DNA of 64,000 nucleotides from an uncultured Bacteroidales bacterium (GTDB lineage: Bacteria > Bacteroidota > Bacteroidia > Bacteroidales > Muribaculaceae). Both the position numbers and the translations under genes were made by a program. The first letter of the stretch is position 1. The number at the start of each line of letters is the position of its first letter. Under the pieces are notes generated by a model that worked only from the letters and a program-made list of their open reading frames with translations, did not search any database and was not told the origin of the DNA. The stretch lies in assembly GCA_946412245.1 (NCBI GenBank), contig CAMKGM010000004.1, positions 1-64,000 of the forward strand. The letters run 5' to 3'. Below are positions 37,782 to 47,155 of the stretch, piece after piece.

Positions 37782-38849
37782 TTATGAATTTGATTTTTCG
37801 AGTGTAAGGAAATTGCAGTGCATCATCGAACCATCGTCATCGCGCAGGTGGAACGCACCACCGGCACAGTAGTCCCACATGCGGCACCGTGCGCATTCAC
37901 CAGTTTTCATCCAGCGACGGTCACGCATTTGCTCAAAACGATTATTCCAAACATCCAGGAAACTATCTTCATAGATATTGCCTTGCTTATAGTTGGCACG
38001 AATGCTCATGCAGCCCGAAATGTCGCCATTGGCAAGTATTGAGGCTGTCATGATACCGGCATCACAGCGAAAACAATGGTCTCTCACTCTGGTTTCGTAG
38101 TCGCCTAAAAAACCTTCACAGCTATATGACAAATCAATTTGCCCCTGCTCACGAGTTTCAACGATGAAATCCATCACACTGCGATACTCGGCAGGAGTCA
38201 AGAATAATTCAGGGTCAAGTTTGGCGCGACCTTGCGGAAATATTGTGAATATGCGCCACTTTTTCACACCGGCCTCAATCAAGTATTGACGTAATTGAGG
38301 CAACGACGCAAGGTTGCGACGATTCACACAGGTAATCACATCCCACAACAAATTGCGAGTGCGCGTGAGCAGCCTCACGGCCGCCATAGCACCGTCAAAC
38401 GAATTGCCACGCAGCCAGTTATGATGACCCTCCAGTCCATCAAGGCTCACGGCAAGGGTCCCCAAACCGGCATCAATCATGCGCCGAAGCGTGGTCTCGG
38501 TGAGTAGCACGCCATTGGTCACAAAACCCCACAAGAAACCGCGTCGCGTAATCTCACGGCCACACTGTTCCAAGTCGGGGCGCACCAGCGGTTCTCCTCC
38601 CACCGTATTCACCTGCACATCGGCAGGATTCATGGCAGTAGCAATTTCATCAAGTACGCGAGTGAAGTGCTCCAAGGGCATGTCGGGCACTTGCGATATC
38701 TTTTTGCAGTCGCTTCCACAATGCCTACATGCCAAGTTGCAACGCAGTGTGCACTCCCAAAACAACTGACGCAACGGATGATGCTTCTCAAGCATCATCC
38801 TATCACGGCGCATCTTCTCAAGTTCAATAAGTTGTTTCGTCTTCATCAA
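37782..38849 (-). CDS. Radical SAM/SPASM enzyme associated with YGPP lipoproteins
   Basis: A 355-residue radical SAM enzyme. The 4Fe-4S/SAM motif is C37-x3-C41-x2-C44 (CNLACRHC), followed by the GGEP motif (NTVGGEPLVRPDL). The C-terminal 100 residues form a cysteine-rich SPASM/twitch-type region (HCFRCDAGI, GDISGCMSI, GECARCRMWDYCAGG and a final Cys) able to hold extra iron-sulfur clusters, as in peptide-modifying maturases. It is the last gene of a minus-strand operon behind two paralogous small lipoproteins, matching what I recall as the TIGR04133/TIGR04134 pairing of a Bacteroidales radical SAM enzyme with putative lipoproteins. The chemistry and substrate residue are unknown; modification of the lipoproteins is inferred. 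Confidence 0.85.
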   Translation of the reverse strand: MMKTKQLIELEKMRRDRMMLEKHHPLRQLFWECTLRCNLACRHCGSDCKKISQVPDMPLEHFTRVLDEIATAMNPADVQVNTVGGEPLVRPDLEQCGREITRRGFLWGFVTNGVLLTETTLRRMIDAGLGTLAVSLDGLEGHHNWLRGNSFDGAMAAVRLLTRTRNLLWDVITCVNRRNLASLPQLRQYLIEAGVKKWRIFTIFPQGRAKLDPELFLTPAEYRSVMDFIVETREQGQIDLSYSCEGFLGDYETRVRDHCFRCDAGIMTASILANGDISGCMSIRANYKQGNIYEDSFLDVWNNRFEQMRDRRWMKTGECARCRMWDYCAGGAFHLRDDDGSMMHCNFLTLEKSNS

Positions 38850-38882
38850 AAAACCGGATTATATCCAATCGGTCAAATTTGA

Positions 38883-39203
38883 TTAATTACTATCCGGATC
38901 AACAGTCACCTCGCCTTTTGGCTCGGGCTCGACTATGACCGGAGGCCCGTAAACATCTTCAACAGGTAAGATGGTATCCTTTACTATATCTCTCCTCATC
39001 ACAGAAGGTGGACCATAAACAAGGGGCTGAGGCTTAGGTGGCCTATTGGGCTCGGTCGAGGGTTGAACAGGCTGCGTTGGCCGTGTCGAGGGATCGGTTT
39101 CAGCAGTCTTCGAAGAGTGGCATGCTACTAAACCAAGAGCGCCCCCAAGAACCACGAAAGCACGCACCAACCATTTTTTTACTGAAAAAGCAGTTTTTTT
39201 CAT
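38883..39203 (-). CDS. Radical SAM-associated putative lipoprotein, copy 1
   Basis: With the start at 39203 the protein has 106 residues and aligns without gaps to the neighbouring paralogue; an ATG at 39209 would add two residues. The signal peptide MKKTAFSVKKWLVRAF leads to the lipobox LVAC with Cys28. The mature part is Pro/Thr/Glu-rich and low in complexity, with two YGPP motifs (LVYGPPSV and DVYGPPVIVEPEPKGE). It ends 33 bases before the radical SAM gene. It is a candidate substrate for that enzyme and probably ends up in the outer membrane; both points are inferred from context. Confidence 0.8.
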   Translation of the reverse strand: MKKTAFSVKKWLVRAFVVLGGALGLVACHSSKTAETDPSTRPTQPVQPSTEPNRPPKPQPLVYGPPSVMRRDIVKDTILPVEDVYGPPVIVEPEPKGEVTVDPDSN

Positions 39204-39232
39204 ATTCATGAAATAATAGTGATTAATAGTCA

Positions 39233-39577
39233 TTATTGCTTGGGAGGAATTTCGGCAGGTTCCTGCGGGTCGACGATAACAGGCGGACCATAGACATCGA
39301 CAACAGGATCAATCTCAACGGGCTCTGCTCCGTTCACTTCTCCGGGAGGCGGACCGTAAACACATTCTATAGGCTCCACTTCACTCTTCTGACCGGGGCT
39401 TATTGAGGCTGATGAAGAACGTTGCGTTACAGAAGAATTGCCTCTACTCGCTCCGCTACCTTGACCATTGCTTGAAGTGGTACCCACGTGCTGGCAAGAG
39501 GCAAATCCCAATACACCACCCACAGTAACGAGCATGCGTATAATCCATTTCTTGACAGTGAATGATGCTTTTTTCAT
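39233..39577 (-). CDS. Radical SAM-associated putative lipoprotein, copy 2
   Basis: A 114-residue putative lipoprotein and the first gene of the operon. Its signal peptide (MKKASFTVKKWIIRML) runs to Cys28 in the lipobox FASC, in exactly the same position as in the paralogue downstream. A Ser/Gly-rich linker follows, then two YGPP motifs (CVYGPPPGE, DVYGPPVIVDPQEPAE). A cysteine precedes the first YGPP motif here but not in the other copy. A minus-strand promoter lies 30-60 bases upstream. Confidence 0.8.
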   Translation of the reverse strand: MKKASFTVKKWIIRMLVTVGGVLGFASCQHVGTTSSNGQGSGASRGNSSVTQRSSSASISPGQKSEVEPIECVYGPPPGEVNGAEPVEIDPVVDVYGPPVIVDPQEPAEIPPKQ

Positions 39578-39606
39578 GAGATTATATATTTTTAAAATTC
39601 AACTTA

Positions 39607-39637
39607 CAAATATATAAAATATTTATTGAAAACACAA
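39607..39637 (-). promoter_or_regulatory. Promoter of the lipoprotein/radical SAM operon
   Basis: On the minus strand: TTG (39637-39635), 20 bases, TATATTTG (39614-39607), 30 bases before the first lipoprotein start. Confidence 0.65.
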
Positions 39638-39683
39638 AAAATATGCGATTTTTTCAAAAATCAGTCTTTAAAAAACAATTTAT

Positions 39684-40836
39684 TTAGGTGCGTTCCACTT
39701 CTTTCACGCCTTTGAGTGAGCGCATTTTCTTCATCAGTTCATCGAGATGGTCAAGGCTGTCAACACTTATCACCAAATAACCCTCAAACAATCCGTCGAG
39801 AGAATTGATGGTAATGTTGCGCAACATGGCATTACCTTCCTTGTTGATGAGCGAGGTCATGTTGGCCACAATGCCTATGTCGTCCTGACCCACGACACGC
39901 AACGTAGCCACAAACTGCTTGCCCATACGTCCCGACCACTCCGACTTGATGATGCGATAAGGATACTTTTCTTTCAGGTGTTTCAGGTTGCCACAATCGC
40001 TGCGATGTATCTTGATAGCACCGTCGCTGGCAATGAATCCCATGATTCTATCTCCATAAATGGGATTGCAGCACTTCGACAGTTTGTAATTGATGCCTTT
40101 CACATTTTCACCTATCACCAGAATGTCGTCACTTTCTTGTTCATCGCTCTTTTTGCTCACAAGCACGAAATTCTCGGCTGTCTCATGACTGCTGACCGTC
40201 TCGGTTTGGCGCTTCATGAACTCAACATACTGGTCAATCGTGGCAACCACATCCAGATTCCTGTCGTGCAGTTCCACATAGAAGTCGTTAATGTTCTTAA
40301 AGCCCTGTTTCTTGATGAACTTGGCAAGCATCGCGTCATCTGAATCCACTTTACGGTTCTTCATGCGACGCGTCAGCATCTCCCTGCCTATCTCGGCCTT
40401 TTTGAGGTTGGCCTCGTTGATGGCCTGCTTAATCTTATTGCGGGCTTTTGAGGTAACAACATAGTTCAGCCAATCCTGACGCGGCACCTGGGTTGACGAT
40501 GTCATAATCTCAACCGTATCGCCACTCTTGAGCACATAATTGATTTTCTGTGTCTTGCCGTCAATCTTTGCACCCGTGCAACGGCAACCTATCTTGGTGT
40601 GAATGTGAAACGCAAAGTCAAGCACTGTGGCGCCCTGACGCAACTTGAACAAGTCTCCTTTAGGAGTGAACACAAACACCTCTTTTTCATACAAGTTCAT
40701 GTTCATGTTCCTGATGAGTTCCATTTGCCCGTCAACACCGGCTTCAAGCACTTCGCGCACATTATTCATCCACTGATCAATCTCGCCTTCACTCTTCACG
40801 CCCTTGTAACGCCAGTGAGCAGCAAGACATCGCTTC
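39684..40836 (-). pseudogene. 5'-truncated duplicate of the rel gene (TGS-ZFD-ACT part only)
   Basis: The 385-codon frame repeats the C-terminal half of the full-length RelA/SpoT gene at 43318-45546. It starts within the end of the synthetase domain (AAHWRYKGVKSEGE) and includes the TGS domain, the helical and zinc-finger-like regions and the C-terminal ACT domain (VVGQDDIGIVANMTSLI). The hydrolase and catalytic synthetase domains are absent. Alignment is gap-free at an offset of 3634 bases; I found no differences in the interior and only a few substitutions at the two edges (for example the end KEVERT-TAA against KEVQRT-TGA). No promoter is visible. It is most likely non-functional, but a translated product could in principle bind ribosomes. 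Confidence 0.85.
39687..40835. repeat. Direct repeat of rel 3' region, left copy
   Basis: About 1.15 kb, nearly identical and co-linear with 43321-44469 in the same orientation. The interval between the two copies holds the htpG fragment, ridA and the C10 protease gene. Confidence 0.9.
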
Positions 40837-40837
40837 C

Positions 40838-41377
40838 ACACTATTCAAAGCGGTGATTCCGGAAGTGGAAAAAAGCAATTTCTATGTATCTTTCGCCACT
40901 ATGGCGCCCACCGACAAGCCCATCATCATCACCCAAAGTGAGTATATGCGACGCATGAAAGAGATGGCTCAGTTCCAGCCGGGCATGAGCTTCTATGGTG
41001 AGATGCCTAACGCTTACAACCTTACGCTCAACACCAACCACAATCTCATCACCAGCGTCATTGAAAATGCTGAAAAAGCACTCGAAAGCGAACTTAAACC
41101 AATCAATGAAGATTTGGCTGCTACGGCTAATGTTATCAAGGCTATACGAGACCTGAACAAGGACGGAAAAGGCGTCCCCGACGACAAAAAGAAGGACCTT
41201 GAAGACAACGAAGCGCACGAGCGTGAATTGCGTGATAAAAAGACGGCTGCCATCACACGCTATGCCCAAGACCAAGACAAGGTGAAGCAGCTCATCGACA
41301 TTGCGCTTCTCGGTAACGGACTGCTCAAGGGAGAGGCACTAAACAACTTCCTGCAGCGCTCTATCGACCTGCTATAA
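40838..41377 (+). pseudogene. htpG: 3' fragment of htpG (Hsp90 C-terminal domain)
   Basis: The frame encodes about 180 residues that match the C-terminal domain of bacterial Hsp90: STLFKAVIPEVEK, VSFATMAPTDKPIIITQSEY, MRRMKEMAQFQPGMSFYGE, and the ending VKQLIDIALLGNGLLKGEA. The N-terminal ATPase and the middle domain (some 500 residues) are missing. The 5' break coincides with the 5' break of the truncated rel copy, which runs the other way, so two gene ends are joined head to head. A terminator-like hairpin downstream (41413-41441) is probably the original htpG terminator. Confidence 0.85.
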
Positions 41378-41839: not shown

Positions 41840-41961
41840 CTTTTTTCTTGGTTTTTCGTTGTTTGTTGTTTAGTTCTTTACAAAATTACAAATAAATTCG
41901 TGCTTAATAATCAATTCGAGTAAAAAATAGTCTCATCATGGTAATTATTTGAGAATTTATG

Positions 41962-41969
41962 TATATTTG
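41962..41969 (+). promoter_or_regulatory. Promoter -7 box of the C10 protease gene
   Basis: TATATTTG fits the consensus and is 13 bases before the chosen start at 41983. This rules out the longer frame starting at 41959 and implies a very short leader. Confidence 0.55.
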
Positions 41970-41982
41970 CAAAAAAAAAGCT

Positions 41983-43278
41983 ATGATTATGACTATATTA
42001 AGGTTTTTTTTATCCATCGCAATCACTCTTGTCGCCTCTACGGCTTGGTGTGGCACCCGCAGCGCACTTAATCCCATGCGCATGGCTGCCATGAGAGTGT
42101 TAAACTCTTCCCGAAATCCACAACTTGTGGCAACTTTACCAAACATGGAGGTCTACGAAAATAACAATGGCGGATTCGCCATCGTTGCCGGCAATGCCAC
42201 GTCGCCCAAAGTACTGGCCTACTCACCCTCGGGTTCATTTCAGCAAGCCGCCGATAACCCCGGTTTTAGTTGGTGGTTAAAAGCTGTCGGCAACGCCACG
42301 CTCAAAGAAACCCCTAAACCCGACACCACAAGGTTCGCGCCTTTCATTGCTCCACTCATCACCAGCAAATGGGGGCAAAACGAACCATGCCGTTACATGT
42401 GCCCCTTTCTTGAATACAATCCCGATTTAAGCAAATACGGCATCTACATCCCCGACAGCACACACAATGCGGTGGGTTGTGGACCCGCTGCAATGGCTCA
42501 ACTAATGTATTACTATAAATATCCACAGCATGGCACCGGTAGTGCTTCGGTAGTAGTTAAATACGACCAAGCTAACGTAACGCTCAACGTCGACTTCGAG
42601 AGTGCGGCCTATGACTGGCAAAACATGCTCGACGATTATAGCGGAACATACTCTACCGCCAATGGCATGGCTGTGGCACAGTTGTGCTACCACGCTGCTG
42701 TTGCAGCCAAAGCAAACTGGACGCGACTGGGTGGCGCTACTTTCGACGAAGACATCCTGAATGCTATGATCAACCACTTCAACTATAACGATAGTGCGCG
42801 TTTTATTCCACGACCTCTCTACCAAGACCAAGAATGGATGGATATGCTCTACACTATGCTCAACAACGGGCAACCGGTTTTGTATTCCGGTAAGGATATC
42901 AACTTCCAAGTTGGCATCCTCGTGGGGCATAATTTCATTATCGACGGATATGACGAGCAAGGCCTCGTGCACGTGAACTGGGGATGGCACGGCAGTCAAG
43001 ACGGATATTTCGATATTGCTACGCTCACAACGGGCATTCTTTCGTTCGACGACTGGCAGGGCATGTATGTCGACCTGTACCCCGAGGTACAAACAATCGC
43101 CGGTGATGTCAATGGCGACGGACTGGTAAACGTGATGGATGTTACTGCCGTCATCAACCACATTTTGGGCGACACACCCACACATTTCAATTCTCAAGCC
43201 GCCGACATGAACAACGACAACAGCATTAATGTGATTGATGTCACTGCAATCATTAACCACATTTTAACAGGACTATAA
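41983..43278 (+). CDS. Secreted C10 family cysteine protease (streptopain-like) with dockerin
   Basis: A 431-residue protein with a signal peptide (ending STAWCG), a propeptide region of about 90 residues resembling the Spi/C10 inhibitor type (MEVYENNNGGFAIVAGNA), and a C10 catalytic domain. The latter shows ITSKWGQNEPCRYMCP, the nucleophile Cys166 in GCGPAAMAQ, His316 in GHNFIIDGY and HVNWGWHGSQDGYF. The last 60 residues are two dockerin repeats (GDVNGDGLVNVMDVTAVI, DMNNDNSINVIDVTAII). C10 proteases of gut Bacteroidales are exported and can act on host or bacterial proteins. It lies between the two direct repeats of the rel 3' region, so it could be lost by recombination. Confidence 0.93.
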   Translation: MIMTILRFFLSIAITLVASTAWCGTRSALNPMRMAAMRVLNSSRNPQLVATLPNMEVYENNNGGFAIVAGNATSPKVLAYSPSGSFQQAADNPGFSWWLKAVGNATLKETPKPDTTRFAPFIAPLITSKWGQNEPCRYMCPFLEYNPDLSKYGIYIPDSTHNAVGCGPAAMAQLMYYYKYPQHGTGSASVVVKYDQANVTLNVDFESAAYDWQNMLDDYSGTYSTANGMAVAQLCYHAAVAAKANWTRLGGATFDEDILNAMINHFNYNDSARFIPRPLYQDQEWMDMLYTMLNNGQPVLYSGKDINFQVGILVGHNFIIDGYDEQGLVHVNWGWHGSQDGYFDIATLTTGILSFDDWQGMYVDLYPEVQTIAGDVNGDGLVNVMDVTAVINHILGDTPTHFNSQAADMNNDNSINVIDVTAIINHILTGL

Positions 43279-43317: not shown

Positions 43318-45546
43318 TCAGGTGCGCTGCACTTCTTTCACGCCTTTGAGTGAGCGCATTTTCTTCATCAGTTCATCGAGATGGTCAAGGCTGTCAACAC
43401 TTATCACCAAATAACCCTCAAACAATCCGTCGAGAGAATTGATGGTAATGTTGCGCAACATGGCATTACCTTCCTTGTTGATGAGCGAGGTCATGTTGGC
43501 CACAATGCCTATGTCGTCCTGACCCACGACACGCAACGTAGCCACAAACTGCTTGCCCATACGTCCCGACCACTCCGACTTGATGATGCGATAAGGATAC
43601 TTTTCTTTCAGGTGTTTCAGGTTGCCACAATCGCTGCGATGTATCTTGATAGCACCGTCGCTGGCAATGAATCCCATGATTCTATCTCCATAAATGGGAT
43701 TGCAGCACTTCGACAGTTTGTAATTGATGCCTTTCACATTTTCACCTATCACCAGAATGTCGTCACTTTCTTGTTCATCGCTCTTTTTGCTCACAAGCAC
43801 GAAATTCTCGGCTGTCTCATGACTGCTGACCGTCTCGGTTTGGCGCTTCATGAACTCAACATACTGGTCAATCGTGGCAACCACATCCAGATTCCTGTCG
43901 TGCAGTTCCACATAGAAGTCGTTAATGTTCTTAAAGCCCTGTTTCTTGATGAACTTGGCAAGCATCGCGTCATCTGAATCCACTTTACGGTTCTTCATGC
44001 GACGCGTCAGCATCTCCCTGCCTATCTCGGCCTTTTTGAGGTTGGCCTCGTTGATGGCCTGCTTAATCTTATTGCGGGCTTTTGAGGTAACAACATAGTT
44101 CAGCCAATCCTGACGCGGCACCTGGGTTGACGATGTCATAATCTCAACCGTATCGCCACTCTTGAGCACATAATTGATTTTCTGTGTCTTGCCGTCAATC
44201 TTTGCACCCGTGCAACGGCAACCTATCTTGGTGTGAATGTGAAACGCAAAGTCAAGCACTGTGGCGCCCTGACGCAACTTGAACAAGTCTCCTTTAGGAG
44301 TGAACACAAACACCTCTTTTTCATACAAGTTCATGTTCATGTTCCTGATGAGTTCCATTTGCCCGTCAACACCGGCTTCAAGCACTTCGCGCACATTATT
44401 CATCCACTGATCAATCTCGCCTTCACTTTTCACGCCCTTGTAACGCCAGTGAGCTGCAAGGCCTCGCTCCGCAACCTCATCCATGCGTTGCGTTCGAATT
44501 TGAACTTCCACCCACTTGTCTTCAGGGCCTCGCACAGTGATGTGAAGCGACTCATAACCATTAGATTTGGGTATTGTAATCCAGTCACGAAGACGCGACA
44601 CATTGGCCATATAGATATCAGTCACTATCGAGTAGGCAATCCAGCAGGCCTTTTTCTCTTCGTCAACAGGTGTATCTAAAATAATGCGTATCGCAAACAG
44701 GTCATACACTCCGTTAAGATCCACACCCTGCTTCACCATCTTATTCCAAATGCTATTAATCGATTTTGTGCGACCTTTCATCTCATATTTAAGGCCGCTC
44801 TTGTCAAGTGCCTCCTTAATGGGTTTCACAAAATCGGCTATATACTTATCGCGGTTCACTTTCGTTTCATTCAGTTTCCGTGCGATTTGATTATAAACCT
44901 TGCGATTCAAGTACTTAAGCGACAAGTCTTCAAGTTCTGATTTAATACCGTACAGACCCAGCTTATGAGCCAACGGAGCATAGAGATAGCGCGACTCGGT
45001 TGAGATTTCACGCACAAATTTTTCATCTTCGTGAAGATTAATTTCACGCATCAAGGCAAGGCGGTCAACAATCATGATAATCACCACTCTGATGTCGGCG
45101 GCGAACGACAATAGCAACTTGTGAAAATTGTCATCCTCAACCGCAGCCTGCTTGCGGTAAAGCTCCGACACATTAACGAGCCCCTTGACCAGTTTGGCAA
45201 TGTCTTCACCAAACAGCTTACGCACATTTTCCACTGTCACATAGCCGCTACGAGCCAAGTTGAACAATAGCGTCGCTATCACCATGCTGCGGTCAGGAGC
45301 AATATTTTCAGTCAAAGTCAACGCAGTGCGCAAGAATCGCACCACCGGATTCAAACCATACTTGTCGCGAACGTAGTGCCCATTAGACACCGCTCCCCGC
45401 AGAATGCGGTCTACCTGATTCACATCAGCCACAGTCAACTGGCTGTCCAGCATACGGATAAGTCGTTTAATCATTGACTGAACCTGAGCAAGTTCTTCAC
45501 GTGTGAAATAGGGGTGATTCATATATTTTTTTAAAGTATTTGTCAT
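43318..45546 (-). CDS. RelA/SpoT family (p)ppGpp synthetase, hydrolase motif degenerate
   Basis: The frame gives 742 residues from the ATG at 45546; a promoter box (45563-45556) lies so close that the ATG at 45522 (MNHPYFTREE) may be the real start. Domains in order: HD-like (about 30-180), synthetase (about 230-360, with IPKSNGYESLHITV and EVQIRTQRMDEVAERG), TGS, helical/zinc-finger-like, and ACT. In the HD domain the usual 'LLHD' motif reads LLFN (Phe95-Asn96), and 'DRLHNMRT' reads DRLALMRE, so ppGpp hydrolysis is probably lost and the enzyme may be synthetase-only (RelA-like). A truncated copy of its 3' half lies 3634 bases away. Confidence 0.93.
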   Translation of the reverse strand: MTNTLKKYMNHPYFTREELAQVQSMIKRLIRMLDSQLTVADVNQVDRILRGAVSNGHYVRDKYGLNPVVRFLRTALTLTENIAPDRSMVIATLLFNLARSGYVTVENVRKLFGEDIAKLVKGLVNVSELYRKQAAVEDDNFHKLLLSFAADIRVVIIMIVDRLALMREINLHEDEKFVREISTESRYLYAPLAHKLGLYGIKSELEDLSLKYLNRKVYNQIARKLNETKVNRDKYIADFVKPIKEALDKSGLKYEMKGRTKSINSIWNKMVKQGVDLNGVYDLFAIRIILDTPVDEEKKACWIAYSIVTDIYMANVSRLRDWITIPKSNGYESLHITVRGPEDKWVEVQIRTQRMDEVAERGLAAHWRYKGVKSEGEIDQWMNNVREVLEAGVDGQMELIRNMNMNLYEKEVFVFTPKGDLFKLRQGATVLDFAFHIHTKIGCRCTGAKIDGKTQKINYVLKSGDTVEIMTSSTQVPRQDWLNYVVTSKARNKIKQAINEANLKKAEIGREMLTRRMKNRKVDSDDAMLAKFIKKQGFKNINDFYVELHDRNLDVVATIDQYVEFMKRQTETVSSHETAENFVLVSKKSDEQESDDILVIGENVKGINYKLSKCCNPIYGDRIMGFIASDGAIKIHRSDCGNLKHLKEKYPYRIIKSEWSGRMGKQFVATLRVVGQDDIGIVANMTSLINKEGNAMLRNITINSLDGLFEGYLVISVDSLDHLDELMKKMRSLKGVKEVQRT
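43321..44469. repeat. Direct repeat of rel 3' region, right copy
   Basis: The part of the intact rel gene that is duplicated at 39687-40835. Similarity decays after the GTAACGCCAGTGAGC block near 44455. Confidence 0.9.
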
Positions 45547-45555
45547 TTTCAACCT

Positions 45556-45587
45556 CAAAATTAAATTATTATTGCTAACTTTACAAA
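45556..45587. promoter_or_regulatory. Divergent promoters between rel and DUF4301
   Basis: On the minus strand TTG (45587-45585), 21 bases, TAATTTTG (45563-45556) faces rel. On the plus strand TAACTTTA (45576-45583), one base off the consensus, faces the DUF4301 gene. The two promoters overlap. Confidence 0.55.
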
Positions 45588-45631
45588 ATAATTGCCACTT
45601 CTTTGAAATTTTTAATAAAACGACATACACC

Positions 45632-47155
45632 ATGTTCAACGAAAAAGACCTTCAATTACTGCAACAAAAAGGCATCTCGCAAGATACCATTCAGCAGCAG
45701 CTTCGACGATTTGAGAAAGGTTTCCCCTATCTCAAGATTGAGTGTGCCGCTACTCCCGGCAACGGCATAACAGTTCTCACCACCAAGGAGTTCAATGCCT
45801 GCACCGAACTGTGGCGCAACTATCGCGCAACCGATGGCTCCATCCTCAAATTCGTCCCGGCGTCGGGCGCTGCCAGCCGCATGTTCAAGGACATCTTTGC
45901 TTTCATCACTGCCGGAAAGGCTCAACCTGAAACCGACTTCGAAAAACAATTCTTTGCACAGATTCAGAATTTCGCCTTCCACGACTTGCTCAACCAGGCT
46001 TGCCAGCGACTGCACGGAAAGTCCATACAGCAACTCATTGACGACGGCCGATTTACCGACGTGGCACAAGCCTTGCTCTCGCCCGAGGGCCTCAACTATG
46101 GTGCCATGCCCAAGGCCCTGCTCCAGTTCCACAAAACCACGGTTAAGGCTACACGCACGCCTCTTGAAGAGCATCTTGAAGAAGGCGCGCAATATGCCGC
46201 CGACTGCAACCGGAATGTCAACATCCACTTCACCGTTTCGCCCGAGCACCGCGATGCTTTCCAACGGCTCATTGACAAGCAAGTGCCCCGGCTTGAGAAG
46301 GTGTGGGGCGTCAAGTTCCACGTCACCATGAGCGAGCAGATGCCTGCCACCGACACTATTGCCGTCGACATGAACAACGCGCCTTATCGCGACGATGACG
46401 GCAACCTGCTCTTCCGCCCGGCAGGGCACGGTGCGCTCATCGAGAACCTTAACGCACAACCCCAGCAAGTGGTCTTTGTTAAGAACATCGACAACGTAGT
46501 GCCTACACGTCTGCGCGCCGAGACCATTCGCTACAAGAAAGCACTCGCAGGCTACCTGCTCATGATTCAGAACAAAATCGCTTCATTCTTGAACACGCTC
46601 GAACACGGCACTCCATCGCGCAAGCAGCTTGACACCATGCTCCACTTCCTCGAGAACACATTGAGCACAAAATTTCCCGCAACCGCACAGATGGACGACA
46701 AGCAACTTGCCGACTATCTGTTCAAGAAATTCAACCGCCCCATCAGGGTGTGCGGCATGGTCAAGAACGAAGGCGAACCCGGTGGAGGTCCCTACCTGGC
46801 CTACAATCCCGACGGCAGCTGCTCACCGCAGATTCTCGAGGCCGCCCAAATCAACCCCGATGACGCTCGCTCAGTTGACATCATGCGCTCCGGCACACAC
46901 TTCAACCCCGTTGACCTCGTTTGCTACCTGCACGACTACAAGGGACAGCCTTTCGATCTCAAACAATTCGTCGACCCCGACACAGGGCTCATCAGCCTCA
47001 AGTCAAAGAATGGTGTCGACATCAAGGCGCTTGAACTGCCCGGATTGTGGAACGGCTCCATGAGCGACTGGAATACCGCCTTCGTCGAAGTTCCCGCAGC
47101 CACATTCAATCCGGTCAAGACGGTCAACGACCTTCTGCGCAAGCAACATCAGTAA
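45632..47155 (+). CDS. DUF4301 family protein
   Basis: A 507-residue soluble protein. The N-terminal MFNEKDLQLLQQKGIS, the segments PASGAASRMFKD and VCGMVKNEGEPGGGPY, and the overall length match DUF4301, common in Bacteroidota. Motifs such as FVPASGAASRMFK and the late NEGEPGGGP resemble sugar nucleotidyltransferase-like folds, but I cannot name a reaction. The ATG at 45632 is used because the longer frame from 45572 overlaps the promoter. It is followed 41 bases later by a thioredoxin gene without a promoter of its own. Confidence 0.87.
   Translation: MFNEKDLQLLQQKGISQDTIQQQLRRFEKGFPYLKIECAATPGNGITVLTTKEFNACTELWRNYRATDGSILKFVPASGAASRMFKDIFAFITAGKAQPETDFEKQFFAQIQNFAFHDLLNQACQRLHGKSIQQLIDDGRFTDVAQALLSPEGLNYGAMPKALLQFHKTTVKATRTPLEEHLEEGAQYAADCNRNVNIHFTVSPEHRDAFQRLIDKQVPRLEKVWGVKFHVTMSEQMPATDTIAVDMNNAPYRDDDGNLLFRPAGHGALIENLNAQPQQVVFVKNIDNVVPTRLRAETIRYKKALAGYLLMIQNKIASFLNTLEHGTPSRKQLDTMLHFLENTLSTKFPATAQMDDKQLADYLFKKFNRPIRVCGMVKNEGEPGGGPYLAYNPDGSCSPQILEAAQINPDDARSVDIMRSGTHFNPVDLVCYLHDYKGQPFDLKQFVDPDTGLISLKSKNGVDIKALELPGLWNGSMSDWNTAFVEVPAATFNPVKTVNDLLRKQHQ

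Follow-up and report, generated by a model that had tools for sequence, protein, structure and literature searches.

Genes for radical SAM/SPASM enzymes of the TIGR04133 family mostly adjoin genes for proteins that share a short Tyr-Gly-x-Pro (YGxP) tag, and this tag, not one lipoprotein family, is the constant element of the association. Sequence comparisons indicate that the enzyme very probably modifies the YGxP tag in lipoprotein precursors before these are exported. An operon from an uncultured Muribaculaceae bacterium, in which two tagged lipoprotein genes are followed by a TIGR04133 gene, would represent a minimal substrate and enzyme module of this kind; we regard this as the best explanation of the whole, with confidence that is about evenly balanced.

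The operon and its products

The operon lies within positions 37782..39637 of the window, by which we mean the whole analyzed stretch of 64,000 nucleotides of contig CAMKGM010000004.1. Its three genes occupy the minus strand in the order lipoprotein 1, lipoprotein 2, and radical SAM/SPASM enzyme. Lipoprotein 1 (39577-39233, minus strand; 114 amino acids) has a lipobox-like LGFASC and two tags, ECVYGPPPG and VDVYGPPVI, with VYGPPP at Tyr74 and VYGPPV at Tyr96. Lipoprotein 2 (39203-38883, minus strand; 106 amino acids) has a lipobox-like LGLVAC and the tags PLVYGPPSV and EDVYGPPVI (VYGPPS at Tyr63 and VYGPPV at Tyr85); its most likely start is the ATG at 39203, and a longer ORF begins at 39233. 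The signal-like starts and lipobox-like ends were read by eye. Neither protein exceeds any NCBIfam or Pfam cut-off in profile scans; both are predicted substrates of the enzyme. The enzyme gene (38846-37782, minus strand), encoding a predicted modifier of the YG tag, starts with the ATG at 38846, which is preceded by an in-frame TTG at 38849; residues are numbered here from the TTG, giving 355 amino acids. The closest relatives of the enzyme (96 and 92% identity) come from MAGs labelled Bacteroidales and Muribaculaceae, the second of them from buffalo rumen. A record of Parabacteroides distasonis likewise has the enzyme and lipoprotein pair.

The YGPP motifs of the two lipoproteins are not a product of chance. 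A YGPP-coding pattern occurs eight times in the whole 3.17-Mb genome, and four of these occurrences fall in the two lipoprotein genes. Of the rest, one falls in the reading frame of a Lon-like ATPase, another lies in a short ORF of doubtful reality, and the last two have no clear in-frame protein.

A promoter-like site, TTTG-N20-TATATTTG, is located upstream of lipoprotein 1 (39607..39638, minus strand) and matches the Bacteroidetes-type promoter consensus. Neither the operon nor the sequence immediately ahead of it has another consensus match; since the window contains 5 such matches against 1.29 expected, one match is weak evidence for a promoter. A sigma-70 scan (8 sites versus 4.1 expected) was uninformative.

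The enzyme scores 510.5 bits with the TIGR04133 model over residues 5-347, against a curated cut-off of 425, and is thus a full member of the family that the first-pass annotation had named and proposed for an HMM search. It also exceeds the gathering thresholds of Pfam Radical_SAM PF04055 (61.1 versus 29.5 bits) and SPASM PF13186 (38.2 versus 21.5 bits) and carries a CxxxCxxC cluster at Cys37/41/44. Together with the ORFs, these features bear out the original description of two lipoproteins with two VYGPP motifs each, followed by a radical SAM/SPASM enzyme. Further cysteines are found at positions 244, 259, 262, 280, 319, 322, 328, and 345, of which Cys319, Cys322, and Cys328 are invariant in 119 aligned TIGR04133 rows. 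The full set of SPASM cysteines is CX2CX5CX3C; its fourth cysteine is absent in 18/18 aligned TIGR04133 rows, and the next cysteine of the enzyme is Cys345. Cys48 and Cys244 are invariant and Cys174 is nearly invariant in TIGR04133, and none of the three is present in the TIGR04103 enzyme.

The predicted structure of the enzyme starts with one helix, followed by the barrel. In fold it is most similar to SPASM enzymes that modify peptides and proteins, the closest solved structures being SuiB, anSME, ChlB, and CteB, which carry out varied chemistry; folds missing from this list carry no evidential weight. No export signal was seen by eye on the enzyme. Counting the genome of the window in each case, the enzyme is present over the cut-off in 18/149 genomes of the family, in 87/393 genomes sampled from the order, and in 3/395 genomes sampled from the phylum.

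TIGR04133 and TIGR04134 are annotated in NCBIfam as "hypoth_equivalog" under names, rSAM_w_lipo and lipo_with_rSAM, that give no function; the first-pass annotation had named the TIGR04133 family correctly. Assignment of the window lipoproteins to TIGR04134 did not hold: hmmscan produced no match of either protein to that model at an E value of 0.1 (cut-off 39.8 bits), and a search of the whole genome of the window gave no match at 0.001, with the control also silent, although the model does match other loci. TIGR04134 partners carry the tag, as the window lipoproteins do, but the latter differ from them in the lack of a match to the model and in having two tags each.

The YGxP tag and its carriers

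We inspected ORFs adjacent to TIGR04133 genes at 143 loci derived from 146 enzyme ORFs; L056 and L012, copies of L102 and L032, respectively, were left out, as was, inadvertently, L057, which is not a copy. One rule was applied to all loci. YGxP was found at 122/143 loci and YG at 135/143, compared to 7/407 and 124/407, respectively, among control ORFs of the same loci, which are stop-to-stop frames of at least 300 amino acids, some of them not real genes (Fisher p = 5e-90 for YGxP). Beside other SPASM/rSAM genes, YG is present at 17/27 loci and YGxP at 2/27; YG alone is therefore weak evidence, and YGxP is strong. The upstream ORF of L057 contains EYGVRE, and inclusion of this locus changes the counts to 122/144 for YGxP and 136/144 for YG. 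L054 and L109, whose last 300 residues are identical, are both counted. By the adjacency rule, 21/143 loci lack YGxP and 8/143 lack YG. On a second inspection of the latter eight, four (L162, L186, L193, and L194) proved to have a YGxP partner overlooked by the rule (this second look covered enzyme loci and not controls), L137 is cut by the contig end, and no such partner was found within 1.5 kb of L140, L145, and L171.

The collecting rule for tags accepted Tyr with Gly or Ala at +1 and Pro or Arg at +3, as well as YGP. In the resulting 278 tags, the residue at -1 is variable (V 88, E 40, L 35, C 30, M 24, and K 21; A also occurs), and position +1 holds Gly in 257 tags and Ala in the other 21. 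Pro occupies +3 in 239 tags, a share biased upwards because the collecting rule itself demanded Pro or Arg at this position or YGP. The motif, which the first-pass annotation wrote as YGPP, is better written X-Y-G-x-P. That the enzyme would act at this motif, as was originally proposed, is strongly supported by its presence in partners at 122 of the 143 loci.

The proteins carrying the tag are diverse. Among the matches listed, there are CarboxypepD-like lipoproteins with, for example, EYGTPYATFKV or ACYGTPQD (in the latter, Tyr directly follows the lipobox Cys); CarboxypepD_reg scores above its cut-off in one carrier and below it in two. Other carriers are a lipoprotein with CVYGSPEV that looks coiled, proteins with an acyl-carrier domain and MYGPR or VYGPP (a PP-binding domain was detected in three proteins), and short peptides in which CVYGPPPP is accompanied by a tail that appears hydrophobic by eye. 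Many carriers among the matches listed have a lipobox, and the tag often either separates the anchor from a domain or, as in ACYGTP, coincides with the lipobox Cys. Carriers of the window type are Pro-rich short lipoproteins and are probably unstructured.

Lipoproteins of the window type occur in 6/149 genomes of the family, all from one genus, and all 14 matches adjoin a TIGR04133 gene. They are a form with multiple tags and were encountered in no other genus of the family sample. Between the window and three orthologous loci, the linkers differ in both length and sequence while the signal peptide and tags persist. The YG of every tag is preserved in the four orthologue pairs, and the one within-tag change is VYGPS for VYGPP, at the first tag of one lipoprotein 2. 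An alignment of 15 such lipoproteins shows VYGPP to be invariant at the first tag and nearly so at the second. The signal peptide is also unusually conserved, with K, R, G, G, and C invariant, and may help recognition by the enzyme. Homologous lipoproteins found routinely without the enzyme had been named in advance as a refuting result; since each window-type match lies beside a TIGR04133 gene, this result is absent for the type.

TIGR04134 exceeds its cut-off in 57/393 genomes of the order, and 54 of the 57 have a TIGR04133 match with an E value of 1e-40 or better (Fisher p = 1e-34). In several genomes, extra TIGR04134 proteins are encoded on contigs other than that of the enzyme. YG is kept in 15 and YGxP in 9 of 16 TIGR04134-type proteins from non-enzyme contigs of enzyme-bearing genomes, a hand-picked subset of the co-occurrence matches that includes some below the cut-off. 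Retention of YG in 15/16 suggests that the enzyme may act on such proteins in trans. In three TIGR04134 genomes without TIGR04133 over the cut-off (best score, 54.7 bits), two of the proteins have no YG (GNGSP and DNKTP) and one keeps it; two of these genomes are 94-95% complete, and one is 75% complete. A genome that does have the enzyme, congeneric with one of the enzyme-less genomes, contains one paralogue that has lost YG. An association between tag loss and absence of the enzyme is thus no more than suggestive. Two weaker TIGR04134-type matches in further genomes (L223 and L224) have no YG and look like generic CarboxypepD-like domains; another match (L225), which keeps YGTP, adjoins a fragmented enzyme match at the end of a contig.

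Flanking genes were clustered as ORFs of at least 120 amino acids at 124 loci and as ORFs of 40-130 amino acids at 140 loci. Among the best 22 clusters of the longer ORFs, one comprises 48 proteins from 37/124 loci, 47 of them with YGxP, and another comprises 26 proteins from 26 loci, 22 of them with YGxP; both are encoded on the strand of the enzyme. In two of the best 10 clusters of short ORFs, YG is present in 52/52 and 22/24 proteins. Neighbors recurring at more than 9 loci are tag carriers only: in these best 22 and best 10 clusters, non-carriers reach at most 9 and 8 loci, respectively, and no protease, exporter, or RRE/PlpY-like partner is widely recurrent. By eye, the non-carrier clusters consist of ordinary genes or antisense ORFs common to related genomes, including peptidase-like proteins. 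Overall, a short tag that is kept while the rest of the module changes is best read as an enzyme together with its modification site.

Candidate reactions and alternative readings

The TIGR04133 enzyme would act in the cytosol, where it would recognize the X-Tyr-Gly-x-Pro tag of lipoprotein precursors and, before export, edit the Tyr-Gly site by radical chemistry. The most likely reaction would be tyramine excision, in which most of the tyrosine is cut out, and we place this just short of an even chance by analogy with PlpX. The product would be an unusual reactive group, a ketoamide, on a protein that is then lipidated and anchored; the group would therefore be retained on a lipid-anchored protein and not leave the cell with a peptide. 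The lipoproteins may be exposed at the surface. Less certain is the role of the ketoamide, which might, for example, inhibit proteases covalently. More broadly, we tentatively propose, with confidence appreciably below even, that RRE-less spliceases across Bacteroidales and in a Treponema rebuild the lipoprotein backbone at X-Tyr-Gly-x-Pro, yielding lasting electrophilic alpha-keto-beta-amino acids; in ACYGTP, the rebuilt residue would be the lipidated cysteine itself.

Another reaction at YGxP, be it a cross-link from Tyr or to Gly or Pro, an epimerization, or a change of Tyr that spares the backbone, is possible, though some way from probable. The invariant Cys48 and Cys244 and the nearly invariant Cys174 are foreign to TIGR04103, one canonical SPASM cysteine is missing, the closest structures perform varied chemistry, and TIGR04133 sits on a long branch of 1.8-2.1 changes per column in trees of 41 and 32 hand-picked sequences. 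Pro at +3 in 239/278 tags, even with its share biased upwards by the collecting rule, is a feature that splicing does not explain. Against such a reaction, Tyr-Gly is kept and the -1 position is free, as expected of an Xaa-Tyr-Gly enzyme, and no further conserved residue capable of cross-linking was seen by eye.

It is improbable that YGxP is only a docking site and that the modified molecule is something else, either a small molecule or another protein. Such a role would be compatible with the presence of enzymes without a visible YG partner in the supported tree group described below, and a tetrapyrrole enzyme model scores as close to the enzyme as TIGR04103 does. A lasting complex is unlikely, however, because the lipoproteins are exported and the enzyme has no export signal by eye; moreover, the tag is often repeated within one protein and is shared by carriers of different folds. 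Release of a tag peptide cut from the lipoprotein, as in an ordinary secreted RiPP, is very improbable: a SPASM enzyme beside a small precursor with repeated tags would fit it, as would an ABC-transporter-like protein (identified by eye) in the flanks of 7/124 loci in the best 22 clusters, but this protein is on the strand of the enzyme in only 3 of the 7 and at a median distance of 1.3 kb, no small partner recurs in the best 10 clusters from 140 loci, and among the matches listed, the tags are often placed between a lipid anchor and a domain or at the anchor itself.

Because X-Y-G-x-P sits in carriers of different folds, and neither an exporter, a protease, nor a PlpY-like gene recurs widely in the best 22 and best 10 clusters, the system resembles protein modification directed by a tag more than a secreted RiPP. 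The first-pass claim that the product would belong to an undescribed class probably goes too far, since the tag resembles that of the known tyramine splicing by PlpX. Our literature searches found no paper linking TIGR04133 to spliceases; the survey of Scott et al. 2022 was outside their scope, and the link may already be published there. According to papers that cite this survey, splicing is reportedly distributed broadly in bacteria and yields protease inhibitors. The main text of a survey of Bacteroidales RiPPs, in its accessible part, mentions no lipoprotein, spliceotide, TIGR04, or YGPP (PMC10352776).

The tag comparison gives the functionless TIGR04133/TIGR04134 pair a sharp prediction at one short site. 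If splicing is true, backbone editing would be a common protein modification in Bacteroidales (87/393 genomes of the order) rather than one restricted to rare peptides, and the enzymes could serve to place ketoamides in proteins, maybe without a leader or partner protein. A different mass shift would point to new radical chemistry at Tyr-Gly.

Comparison with spliceases and other SPASM enzymes

TIGR04103, to which PlpX presumably belongs, was used as a stand-in for the PlpX family. The enzyme scores 121.2 bits with this model, far below the cut-off of 725, and 122.8 bits with each of the TIGR04053 and AhbD models, which is on par; a Nostoc enzyme scores 853.1 bits with TIGR04103. In a tree of 32 hand-picked sequences, a supported branch (99/97) unites TIGR04133 with TIGR04103/TIGR03913 and other SPASM enzymes, some without such a tag seen beside them. 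MftC, TIGR04053, and an AhbD-like protein, which scores 329 bits against a cut-off of 500, lie outside this group. TIGR03913 groups with TIGR04103 (100/99). A clade of TIGR04133 with TIGR04103/TIGR03913 alone appears in 0% of bootstrap trees, and enforcing it is not rejected (p-AU = 0.159).

Two other known activities were considered and set aside. MftC acts on a C-terminal Val-Tyr, and Val-Tyr is common to both systems; a mycofactocin-like action was discarded because the motif here is internal and MftC, itself long-branched, falls across the supported branch. Heme-type enzymes (AhbD and NirJ) give similar HMM scores, but the AhbD-like protein and TIGR04053 lie across the same branch, and the partner here bears a tag. 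As for anSME, it oxidizes Cys or Ser to formylglycine at CxPxR, a motif not known at this locus.

TIGR03913 enzymes with GDL/DUF1843 peptides resemble the window in having xYG or xYA beside the enzyme. DUF1843 peptides with PYGP, PYGV, PYGA, LYGV, and MYAA were found at four TIGR03913-type loci (L063, L065, L203, and L204); at a Tropicibacter locus of the same clade (L205), no xY[GA] peptide was seen. Unlike the window lipoproteins, these are short peptides without a signal by eye, and none has YGxP. Since TIGR04103 and TIGR03913-type partners also present Tyr-Gly or Tyr-Ala, the partner motif is common to three families, as judged from one TIGR04103 and four TIGR03913-type loci.

A further parallel is provided by PlpXY. 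PlpX excises tyramine at Xaa-Tyr-Gly, as stated in the available part of one report (PMC11002830), and protease inhibition is reported for spliceotides in the available part of another (PMC10373908). The accessible portion of a third gives MYG and LYG as natural splicease sites, describes the splice tag PIRPLYGLPI and a GYG form also tried in FtsZ, and lists 16 FtsZ constructs of which 2 were accepted, so context matters (PMC10533398). The same portion contains another tag, GAVAAGYGVVFPG, without Pro at +3, and reports that PlpXY is independent of a leader (PMC10533398); within these sources, no requirement of PlpX for Pro at +3 is known. No Nif11 or NHLP leader model is among the NCBIfam matches of either window lipoprotein, and no PlpY-like partner recurs beside TIGR04133 genes in the best 10 short-ORF clusters from 140 loci; a partner encoded elsewhere is possible. 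The window enzyme also differs from PlpX in its score far below the TIGR04103 cut-off and in its predicted lipoprotein substrate. The systems nevertheless share a SPASM radical SAM enzyme beside an Xaa-Tyr-Gly precursor, here with four VYG sites, YG alone being also found near 17/27 other rSAM genes. On a Nostoc plasmid, a TIGR04103 enzyme adjoins a Nif11 peptide ending RGSIALYGLPPELF, with the core end IALYGLPPELF, which of the splicease-type cores seen comes nearest to the VYGPP tag. LYGLPI in the accessible published text and LYGLPP in Nostoc correspond to VYGPP in the window.

Genes upstream of the operon

The operon, in which two lipoprotein genes with VYGPP tags (the Tyr-Gly sites predicted to be edited) precede the TIGR04133 radical SAM/SPASM gene, is adjoined on its upstream side by a partial RelA/SpoT-type gene copy (39684–40841, minus strand; 385 amino acids) with TGS, RIS and ACT parts. 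The full-length RelA/SpoT-type gene (43318–45639, minus strand) lies ~2.5 kb beyond the partial copy, and the two are 99.5% identical across 1149 bp. The presence of both copies in the window means either that the gene was duplicated recently or that the assembly has introduced an artefact. In three relatives, too, the operon is flanked on its upstream side by a homologous stretch, at 79 to 84% identity. Between the two copies sits a gene for a C10 (SpeB-type) peptidase (41959–43278, plus strand). This peptidase also has a Spi inhibitor-like domain and, at its C-terminus, a dockerin type I domain.

Tagged partners at other TIGR04133 loci

At three loci from the window's genus (L009, L011 and L014), partners of a second type, encoded directly 3′ of the TIGR04133 gene, combine MYGPR/VYGPP tags with a C-terminal acyl-carrier (PP-binding) domain.

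In the 26-member cluster of tag-carrying neighbor proteins, L166 and other loci have the tag form ACYGTP. Since the residue preceding Tyr is here the lipobox Cys, the predicted edit would touch the lipidated residue itself.

The enzyme and its catalogued lipoprotein partner, TIGR04134, also occur as a pair beyond Bacteroidota, on plasmid pTS1 of Treponema saccharophilum (L200). This lipoprotein carries SCYGMPENYY at its lipobox, and a DNA invertase gene adjoins the pair.

Peptides beside TIGR03913-type enzymes

DUF1843 “GDL motif” peptides adjoining SPASM enzymes of the TIGR03913 type (L063, L065, L203 and L204) contain xY[GA] near their N-terminus. From this sequence feature, editing at Tyr-Gly is predicted for these peptides too.
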